Positions 24,263-47,074 of a DNA stretch of 64,000 bases are shown here, piece after piece (the first letter of the stretch is position 1; every line of letters begins with the position of its first letter). Source of the stretch: Dyella japonica A8 (GTDB lineage: Bacteria > Pseudomonadota > Gammaproteobacteria > Xanthomonadales > Rhodanobacteraceae); NCBI RefSeq assembly GCF_000725385.1, contig NZ_CP008884.1:1116001-1180000 (forward strand), in the 5' to 3' direction. Under the pieces are notes generated by a model. That model saw nothing but the letters and a program-made list of their open reading frames with translations, was not told the DNA's origin and did not search any database. The translations under genes were made by a program, and so were the position numbers.

Positions 24263-24443
24263 GGCTTGGAGCTCCCCGGTGCGTGGCCGGGTTTATCGCA
24301 GCATGGACGGCTGGGTGCGGCAAGGGGTGATGTTGGGGGCGCGCAGGTTTGAGGTTGTTCTGGTGGTGTGTGGTTGGGTTTTCTTGGTTTGGTGGTATGC
24401 GGGCGGGGCAACGGTGGGCGTTGTTCTGGGGGATGGAAAAAGA
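24263..24443. other. G/T-skewed stretch upstream of marC
   Basis: The marC promoter region. On the + strand the sequence from about 24320 to 24440 is strikingly rich in G and T and poor in A and C. I see no gene, palindrome or terminator in it. It ends where the composite repeat begins. Confidence 0.4.
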
Positions 24444-24873
24444 GTTGGGGTGAGGGGCGGGTGCTCGCCTCACGGCCTCGTTCTTTAGCCGTCATCCCGG
24501 CACCTCCCAAAAAAGGCAATCTCGCCTTAGCGTTTCAAAGACACCGTCATCCCGGCGCAGGCCGGGATCCAGTTTCTGTGGTGGTCGGTCGTCGCCTCAG
24601 GCGCTCCCGTGACCTGGCTCGCCTGCCGCGGGCTTCCGCCCTCCTGCCGGAGGCCGGGTCACTTTCTCTTGCTTGCCCAAGAGAAAGTAACCAAAGAGAA
24701 GGGCCCCCCGGATGACGCGCCTTCCGGGCTTGCAGCCCGGAAGGTTCGCGGGCGGGTTCCGGGCTTTTCGACGGGGCTCCTGCCCCGACGAAAAGTGCCT
24801 GGCATCCCTGCCAGGCACCCCTGTGGGGCCTGATCTCCACCCGCCCGCCGCGTCATACGGGGACCCGGTAGGT

Positions 24874-24964
24874 CAAAAGCCAAAAGCCAAAAGCCAAAAG
24901 CCAAAAGCCAAAAGCCAAAAGCCAAAGGCCAAAGGCCAAAGGCCAAAGGCCAAAGGCCAAAGGC
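24874..24964. repeat. Heptamer tandem array, 13 units
   Basis: Seven copies of CAAAAGC (24874-24922) followed by six copies of CAAAGGC (24923-24964), without interruption, then a broken unit. The matching array in the other element copy has nine units. The four-unit difference (28 bp) explains almost all of the 29 bp length difference between the two element cores. Because 7 is not a multiple of 3, all frames give an apparent peptide repeat; it is not coding. Confidence 0.97.
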
Positions 24965-25013
24965 CAAAGCAAGAGCCCGAGCCGTCAGCGGAGCATCCAA
25001 AGAGGCGAGTCCC

Positions 25014-25098
25014 CTGTGGGAGCGCACCCTGTGCGCGACAGCAGAGTCTGGTGATCACCGCTCCGCTGGCTTGTCGCGCACAGGGTGCGCTCCCACAG
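25014..25098. repeat. Inverted repeat, 27 bp perfect arms (family 1), inside element A
   Basis: Arms 25014-25040 and 25072-25098, with the core GAGCGCACCCTGTGCGCGAC. Each arm is itself partly self-complementary (GCGCAC...GTGCGC). Same family as at 11568, 28945, 46638, 48155 and 59223. Confidence 0.95.
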
Positions 25099-25612
25099 AA
25101 AAGCGAGGGGCGGCGCGCGTCCAGTCAGCGCCGAAGCGAGGCTTCGCTTTAAGCCCTCATCGCGATGGCGCGTTGCGAAGCGCCTGGACGTACCCGCTGT
25201 GTAGCGGCGGAGGTTGCCAAGCACCGACCTGCCTCACCCGTTCGGGCTTATCCCCACGAAATGCTGCCAGCTCTGGCTCTAAAGGCCATTTTCTTTGGGT
25301 TACTTTTCTTTTGGGCCAGCAAAAGAAAAGTGACTCGGCCTTCGGCAGAAGGTCGAAACGCCCGCTGCGTAAGCGGCCAGATCGCGGGAGCGTACGAGGC
25401 GACAACCAACCGCAAAGTCACTGGATGACCAGCCATGCGGCTGTTGAAAAGCGCCTCCGGCCTACGCCGGGATGACGGCTAAAGTATGAAGCCGTGAGGC
25501 CAGACACCGAAGATCCGCCTCGCCAGCGTTCTACGCGTCACACATCTGCTCGTTCCGCGCCAACCCTTCCCGCGTCGAGATGAAAGTCACAACAAAGCGG
25601 TAAGCCAAGCCC

Positions 25613-46053: not shown

Positions 46054-46523
46054 TGCTGCGCTTTTGTCTCCTCCATCCTTCCGCGGCGCAGGAGTGGCCA
46101 TGGATGGTGGTGGCTTTGAGGAGTGAGGAGGGGGTTGGGGTGAGGGGTGGGTGTTCACCTCACCGCTTCGTTCTTTAGCCGTCATCCCTGCGAACCCCGA
46201 AAAGGGGGCAAGGGCAGGGATCCAGTGACTTTGCTCTAGGCCTGCGGCTTTAGCGATACCGCGACCTGGCTCGCCTGCGGCGGGCTTCCGCCCTCCTGCC
46301 GGAGGGCGGGTCACTTTTCTTTGCTTGCCCAAAGAAAAGTAACCCAAAGAAAGGGCCCCCGGATGACGCGCCTTCCGGGCTTAGCCCGGAAGGTACGCAG
46401 GCGGGTTCCGGGCTTTTCGACGGGGCATCCTGCCCCGACGAAAAGTGCCAGGGATCCCTCCCTGGCACCCCTGCGGGGCCTGATCTCCACCCGCCCGCCG
46501 CGTCATACGGGGACCCGGTAGGT

Positions 46524-46586
46524 CAAAAGCCAAAAGCCAAAAGCCAGAAGCCAAAAGCCAAAAGCCAAAAGCCAAAAGCCAAAAGC
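46524..46586. repeat. Heptamer tandem array, 9 units
   Basis: Nine uninterrupted heptamers, all CAAAAGC except the fourth (CAGAAGC), then a broken CAAAGC unit. It is the counterpart of the 13-unit array in the other element. Confidence 0.97.
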
Positions 46587-46637
46587 CAAAGCAAGAACCC
46601 GAGCCGTTAGCGGAACATCCCAAGGTGGCGGGTTCTT

Positions 46638-46720
46638 TGTGGGAGCGCACCCTGTGCGCGACAGCGGCGTCTCGTGATTACCGCTCCGTTGGCTTGTCGC
46701 GCACAGGGTGCGCTCCCACA
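46638..46720. repeat. Inverted repeat, 26 bp perfect arms (family 1), inside element B
   Basis: Arms 46638-46663 and 46695-46720, core GAGCGCACCCTGTGCGCGAC, at the same place within the element as in copy A. Confidence 0.95.
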
Positions 46721-47074
46721 GAAAAGCGCGCGACCGTGTGGGTCTCATCGGCACCGAAGCGAAGCGCTGCTTTAAGTCCTCATCGCCCTGGCGCGTTGCG
46801 AAGCGCTTGGAAGTACCCGCTGTGTAGAGGCGGAGGTAGTCGAGTCACAACGTTCCTCACCCGTTAGGGCTTATCCCAACGAAATGCTGCCAGCTCTGGC
46901 TCTCAAGGCCATTTTCTTTGGGTTACTTTTCTTTTGGGCCAGCAAAAGAAAAGTGACTCGGCCTTCGGCAGAAGGTCGAAACGCCCGCTGCGTAAGCGGC
47001 CCGATCGCGGGATCGTCTGAGGCGACAACCAACCGCAAAGTCACTGGATCCCGGCCTGCGCCGGGATGACGGCT

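Follow-up and report, generated by a model that had tools for sequence, protein, structure and literature searches.

Composite non-coding repeats of Dyella japonica A8 with a covarying candidate triple-helix pseudoknot at their inward-facing ends

Two blocks of about 1 kb, copies A and B, lie in the 64,000-nucleotide stretch of Dyella japonica A8 DNA analysed here (the window). What kind of element are they? A preliminary description took them for one structured, non-coding block repeated once, and suggested an unrecognised mobile element or structured RNA gene that carries other repeats with it. Copies A and B form a single blastn alignment with 809 of 985 columns identical (82%, 7% gaps, E = 0.0). 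The shared orientation and order of parts are borne out, and the heptamer array, the 27-bp perfect inverted repeat, the hairpins and the final hairpin with its 12-bp stem are all present. "Repeated once" is wrong; 40 copies were chained in the genome, so the block is not a one-off segmental duplication. Comparison with at least three similar ends elsewhere places the limits of copy A at about 24431 and about 25515. Its ends are imperfect inverted repeats of about 145 columns (24567-24705 versus 25284-25426, 79%), much longer than REP units alone. The core folds far better than its shuffles (z = -17.4; 0/20 shuffles equally good); part of this excess is pairing between the two inverted ends.

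The genome is one contig of 4,827,500 bp, and a search of it with copy A gives at least 183 matches. Thirty-eight places were fetched and, with the two in the window, make up the 40 chained copies; this number is a lower bound, since the search was led by copy A and counts too few of the copies that lack the right half. Of the 40, 27 cover 700 bases or more of the 816-base core; the others are shorter, and inner parts are often missing. Scanned with a covariance model built on the left body, this genome and one congener each give 47 places. The parts follow one another in the same order throughout the 40 copies, and the REPIN-like pair and the right half keep a constant position. Both neighbouring genes could be called for 33 copies, of which 17 lie between convergent genes, 15 between tandem genes and one between divergent genes; the other seven have no resolved orientation. 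This placement matches that of REPs, which are reported between convergent or unidirectional genes (PMC3733652).

Copy A lies between a MarC-family gene and an RNase_H_2-domain gene, in a spacer of 1350 bp. The RNase_H_2-domain gene is found in 20/20 genomes of the genus. Copy A is absent from this site in relatives: in five congeners (G002, G007, G011, G016 and G017), the two genes are separated by about 110-160 bp that contain no family module, and the same short spacer without the element is seen on part of a contig from a sixth (G005). G003 has both genes as well; its spacer holds an unrelated palindrome, and matches to REP arms lie past the MarC gene. The arms of this palindrome are about 30 bp (L224:2634-2841), as if the spacer tolerates insertions. 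MarC was not recognised at the remaining loci; among them, G014 has family modules beside the RNase_H_2 gene. No target duplication is readable at the copies or at the copy A locus, where the congeners are too distant to place junctions. An outer-inverted-repeat finder reports an inverted pair in 6/20 loci, at least one of which is probably not an element end. A search restricted to the Y1 family found no mobilising gene with ends matching the composite; its one gene has other flanks. The copy number, empty site, inverted ends and intergenic placement support the suggested non-autonomous mobile element; no transposase for the composite and no readable target duplication was found. The features of MITEs are present: inverted ends, no coding capacity, many copies and an empty site (compared for copy A only).

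On sequence grounds, each element is two half-elements which face each other (Table 1). From the outside in, a half-element consists of a CGTC-type REP, an arm, the geometry of a triple-helix pseudoknot and a structured body; in the D. japonica A8 genome, the heptamer array and the REPIN-like pair sit between the halves. The left and right bodies differ from each other, and the hairpin is 11 bp on the left and 12 bp on the right. Related genomes often have a left-type half at both ends, inverted, instead of left plus right (loci L038, L044, L045, L047, L049, L051 and L052). The flanking units, earlier described as pointing inward, can be identified as CGTC-type REPs in inverted outer arms, with their tags directed outward. 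The REP at 24544-24573 has the CGTC tag, 8-bp stem starting AT, 4-nt loop and CCA tail of the CGTC-1 type. Across 35 left bodies, taken from this genome and from related ones, two-sided changes occur at 28 of the 48 pairs predicted for the left body.

Table 1. Features of copies A and B, in positions of the window; pseudoknots are candidate folds
Feature	Copy	Positions	Strand	Remarks
Composite element (L half left, R half right)	A	24445..25503	+	Alignment, inverted arms
Composite element	B	46135..47074	+	Alignment with copy A
TTGGGGTGAGGGG tract	A	24445..24457	+	Like last part of BoxC/TMECO triplex motif
TTGGGGTGAGGGG tract	B	46135-46147		Identical to copy A tract
Outer inverted arm, left	A	24464..24501	+	Partial CGTC REP start at 24489
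CGTC-1 type REP, left end	A	24544..24570	+	Read directly; features from PMC3733652
Left triplex pseudoknot (candidate fold)	A	24661..24705	+	Stem 24661-24671/24678-24688; third strand 24693-24700; loop helix 24674-24677/24702-24705, 3/4 loop pairs here
Left triplex pseudoknot (candidate fold)	B	46313..46356	+	
Left body, multibranched hairpins with TCC loops	A	24701..24862	+	Covariance model R1 from its family
Left body	B	46353..46512	+	
Heptamer array CAAAAGC/CAAAGGC	A	24874..24964	+	
Heptamer array	B	46524-46586		
REPIN-like inverted pair of RAYT-associated units	A	25015..25097		83 bp
REPIN-like inverted pair	B	46638-46720		
Right body/linker	A	25100..25283	-	
Right triplex pseudoknot (candidate fold), 12-bp stem	A	25284..25331	-	Final hairpin of the preliminary description
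Right triplex pseudoknot (candidate fold)	B	46907..46954	-	Letters identical to copy A
CGTC-type REP, right end, inner part replaced	A	25457..25478	-	
CGTC-1 type REP, right end	B	47046..47071	-	
Outer inverted arm, right	A	25466..25503	-	89% complementary to left arm

The composite does carry other repeats, as had been proposed. A Y1-transposase-family search of the genome gives one match (L099:1310-2020), a likely RAYT locus, with units like the REPIN-like pair on both sides; because of this likeness, the long inner inverted repeat is read as a REPIN-like unit inside the composite. The arms of this pair are still exact in 18/40 copies. The flanks of the RAYT-type gene match 25015-25097 only, and the composite's own ends do not match them. 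At least 11 copies (L066, L070, L074, L075, L076, L079, L080, L081, L082, L084 and L085) have a piece like ATCCCACGGGGACTAGC inserted in the left hairpin or replacing part of it, with the stem broken. Such pieces appear to be a mosaic of another repeat.

Non-coding character had been claimed for both copies. Many copies do have an open frame running through the right half, but entropy by codon position in the 40-copy alignment is 0.27, 0.30 and 0.23 bits. The third position is lowest, the frame shows no coding selection, and a protein-coding right half is rejected. A known RNA family is also rejected; Rfam has 0 matches at the gathering threshold in the window, and the 11 weak matches in 24440-25510 are all below it (for example, Xoo1 at 18 bits against a cut-off of 70). 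Copy A has no match in phages and one match of 58 bases in plasmids, in Ilyobacter; a related Pseudomonas element has partial matches in two plasmid records, and the 76 bases around its motif have no match in E. coli. The element was called unrecognised, which does not hold for its parts, as the CGTC REPs and REPIN-like units are catalogued, but holds for the composite as a whole, which has no match at threshold in Rfam. The open-access literature searched gave no description of the composite or of the pseudoknotted motif; the triplex database ITxF may list single instances.

The end motif is a hairpin followed by a purine tract and a partner for the hairpin loop. The pattern used to collect 112 distinct sequences, this genome included, fixed the hairpin but not the downstream tract, which leaves tests of the tract unconditioned. 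The tract mirrors the purine arm of the stem, with 105/112 sequences matching at all five variable places. Stems that are mirror-asymmetric distinguish mirror order from direct order; 33/37 fit the former and 0/37 the latter. The mirror score is 550, against a maximum of 402 in 10,000 permutations. Position N in the loop TGNCC is met downstream by the expected base for C in 56/71 cases, for G in 25/27 and for T in 10/14.

A second test began from 74 loci (36 named or from this genome, 38 unnamed or plasmid), with the first match taken per locus. At least 9/11 stem pairs and at least 6/8 purines in the tract were required, and identical sequences were dropped; the filter set neither which purine stands where nor the loop partner. 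In the 52 distinct sequences kept, stem and loop helix are paired in 98.7% of 780 cells. Two-sided changes occupy 110 cells, compared with 32.5 in shuffles (0/500 as high), and occur in 4/4 loop-helix pairs and 6/11 stem pairs; further pair types are not above shuffles in this set (17 versus 15.4; 62/500). The third strand equals the mirrored purine arm in 404/416 cells, where the best of 10,000 permutations reaches 349. Stem, loop partner and third strand therefore change in a coordinated way. The mirror rule is broken in 7/112 sequences of the first test and 12/416 cells of the second. The three T's in the purine arm face C in the third strand, and the one C faces G. On the opposite strand, a third-strand C facing T reads as G; pyrimidine-motif triplexes are known to contain a triplet in which G faces a T-A pair.

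Strand lengths also keep in step. Stem and tract stand at 9:6, 10:7, 11:8 or 12:9 in 155 of 165 distinct hairpins with a loop partner, including 121 at 11:8 and 27 at 12:9 (the latter mostly right ends of the Dyella composite family). Five of the ten off-series hairpins are stems extended at the base; another 23 hairpins lack a loop partner. Mirrored cells, covarying loop pairs and coordinated lengths together give the geometry of an intramolecular triple helix; the predicted fold is an H-type pseudoknot that encloses it. The triplex would be of the purine motif on one strand and of the pyrimidine motif on the other. Pyrimidine arm, purine arm and mirrored purine third strand lie on one strand, as in intrastrand triplexes of class II.

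Related sequences are widely distributed. An 831-bp core has matches in 37/61 genomes: 20/20 of the genus, including this one, and 17/41 others. The hairpin pattern is found in at least 120 stretches of named genomes. Among the matches listed are Dyella, which is the commonest named genus, Rhodanobacter, Frateuria, Lysobacter, Dokdonella, Pseudomonas, Thiobacillus, Methylotenera, Psychromonas, Thalassocella and others, together with MAGs labelled Desulfobulbus and Spirochaetes. In a phylum-wide set, the exact pattern is present in 4/398 genomes, this one included, and the reversed pattern is absent among the matches listed for that set. A 151-base Pseudomonas piece matches 29/274 genomes of the class and 25/222 genera, the D. 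japonica A8 genome included; in a few cases, the match takes in only a portion of the motif. A plasmid of Ilyobacter polytropus, a relative of Fusobacterium, has six matching places. The two that were read show the same pseudoknot motif on AT-rich Fusobacteriota DNA without GC-rich bodies (L278:2500-2550, L279:2505-2555).

Pairing of ends recurs in these taxa. Among the at least 120 loci of named genomes, 15 of the 18 pairs of neighbouring motifs are in facing orientation, and in 14 of these the spacing is 418-688 bp. About 100 loci have a single recognised motif, some near the locus edge, and part of them have downstream inverted-repeat matches. The outer repeats vary by taxon: the Pseudomonas element has an inverted repeat around ACTGGCAAGTTTGTGTG and Thalassocella has another, and those of Stenotrophobium and Dyella are REP-like.

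Several known systems resemble parts of the composite. In telomerase RNA, a joining strand is laid in the groove of a stem, a topology like that of the end motif's opposite strand; the end motif differs in its 11-12 bp stem, its strict Watson-Crick pairs and in being carried by repeats. We know of no ligand or protein for the end-motif pseudoknot. The Neisseria intergenic mosaic elements with dRS3 are also mosaics of repeats, interleaved with CGTC-1 REPs; to our knowledge they have no triplex pseudoknot. dRS3 has been equated with CGTC-1 (PMC3733652). CGTC-1 REPs share the tag, the 8-bp stem, the 4-nt loop, the CCA tail and the outward tags, but their pairs have a spacer of 20-100 bp, whereas the REP pair of the composite encloses about 1 kb of conserved structured DNA (PMC3733652). 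REPINs and RAYT genes have a similar inverted pair of palindromic units, related to the flanks of the Y1-family gene (PMC3116915, PMC2817692); in the composite, this is the inner part only, and its own ends are unrelated.

Class II intrastrand triplexes (BoxC, PIT and TMECO) have been described and linked to genome instability (PMC4666352). These too are intergenic and present in many copies, with a pyrimidine arm, loop, purine arm, spacer and mirrored purine third strand. The general strand order of the mirror tract is thus already known (PMC4666352). The TMECO consensus is CCCTCNCCC N3-6 GGGNGAGGG N3 GGGNGAGGG; it is GC-rich and has a loop of 3-6 nt without a partner (PMC4666352). In contrast, the Dyella end motif is AT-rich, has a 6-nt loop paired downstream as a pseudoknot, covaries in all its parts and sits at the inward-facing ends of elements of 0.4-1 kb. 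It therefore does not fit BoxC, PIT or TMECO proper. No full TMECO match occurs within the 64-kb window; a full match is found at 1/80 flank ends and half-sites at 3/80, and the left flank of L087 has a TTGGGGTGAGGGG-type tract. The main text of PMC4666352 has no occurrence of pseudoknot, Xanthomonas or covariation. What is new in the Dyella family is an AT-rich, knotted, covariation-supported triplex motif at the inward-facing ends of composite repeats, of which ITxF may list instances.

It is of interest whether the fold is kept in DNA or RNA. In the end-motif stems, 974/975 variable cells are Watson-Crick (195 matches, repeated loci counted), as is expected in a triplex stem of DNA or RNA alike. 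Among the 1083 cells of the left-body hairpins, 35 are G-U, and 33 of these belong to a single pair; the long-range pairs of the left body are looser (23 G-U, 20 A-C and 25 other in 595 cells). RNase P RNA of the genus, aligned and folded alike, has 72 G-U in 420 variable-pair cells. In other taxa, 633 cells of the TCC hairpins contain 3 G-T, 2 A-C and 34 other mismatches. Wobble asymmetry was considered as a pointer to an RNA strand and gives no signal in hairpins. The near-absence of G-U favours a fold kept in DNA, as judged from base pairs. Loops after the end motif read TCC in 150/252 hairpins and GGA in 3 (102 bodies); among 35 hairpins in 65 control segments 2 kb away, these numbers are 1 and 2. 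The opposite strand consequently shows many GGA loops, several hairpins on one strand as in CsrB/RsmZ-like RNAs, and GGA loops are of the kind bound by CsrA/RsmA.

The structured RNA gene of the preliminary description is thus weakened by hairpins nearly free of wobble pairs and, through the one-sidedness of TCC and GGA, is kept as a main rival. It would be an RNA carried on a repeat: transcripts would run outward through GGA-loop hairpins and end in a 3' pyrimidine-motif triplex pseudoknot which protects the end, and the inverted halves would serve transcripts from either side. The strand with the GGA loops is also the one with the pyrimidine-motif triplex, a type stated to occur in RNA (PMC4666352), the left-body pairs covary, and the genes adjoining the copies mostly end towards the element. 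Against this, G-U is far scarcer than in RNase P RNA, the few G-T and A-C pairs in other taxa give no strand signal, and no Rfam family matches at threshold; we regard an RNA of this kind as unlikely. A passive mosaic, in which REPs, REPIN and triplex motifs have accreted at insertion-tolerant sites and spread by recombination between repeats, is rather unlikely. The triplex motif would then be a by-product, or would mark a fragile site like that suggested for TMECO, and would not be the end of a mobile element. In favour of this reading are TMECO, which is tied to instability and shows no transposase remnants (PMC4666352), the tract at 24445 with its likeness to part of the BoxC/TMECO motif, outer repeats that differ between taxa, and several copies with swapped pieces in the left hairpin. 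However, the constant part order and placement in 40 copies and the convergent, regularly spaced pairs in other genera do not suit passive accretion, and coordinated change in four components requires that the fold itself be under selection. That the repeat is a one-off segmental duplication or a chance low-complexity resemblance is scarcely credible given 40 copies, matches in 37/61 genomes and the permutation and slide controls; nothing was found in its favour.

Copies A and B are, on balance, probably members of a non-coding, non-autonomous, mobile-like DNA repeat family, the ends of which would act as folded single strands. When the strands separate, the end would fold into the pseudoknot, and the tract joining stem and loop partner would lie along the stem as third strand. 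The folded single-stranded end would be recognised by a mobilising or recombining enzyme, much as is thought to hold for hairpin REPs and RAYTs. This recognition and the spreading route of the family are inferred. Besides the breaks in the mirror rule and the lack of a readable target duplication, further observations count against the mobile reading. The Y1-family gene is flanked by the inner REPIN-like units and not by the composite ends; the left pseudoknot stem is intact in 18/40 copies of this genome, compared with the right one, which is exact in 39/40; and one-sided TCC loops would suit RNA. A wider proposal, which we hold only tentatively, is that the triple-helix pseudoknot may form the end of a class of non-autonomous mobile DNA that extends over bacterial classes and phyla, where an undescribed enzyme would recognise it. 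Binding of the folded single strand would place stem, loop partner and third strand under selection to stay in step, and outer repeats could be exchanged.

Physical evidence for the triplex repeats of bacteria comes from work in vitro, but there are few indications that the fold exists in cells (PMC4666352). In the end motif, base changes in three strands, loop pairing and strand lengths co-vary across many genera, which is natural evidence that the fold itself is selected. The motif also provides a short, defined set of sequences for testing selection on a three-stranded fold. It points to an end of a mobile element of new design, or to a structured-RNA family absent from Rfam.
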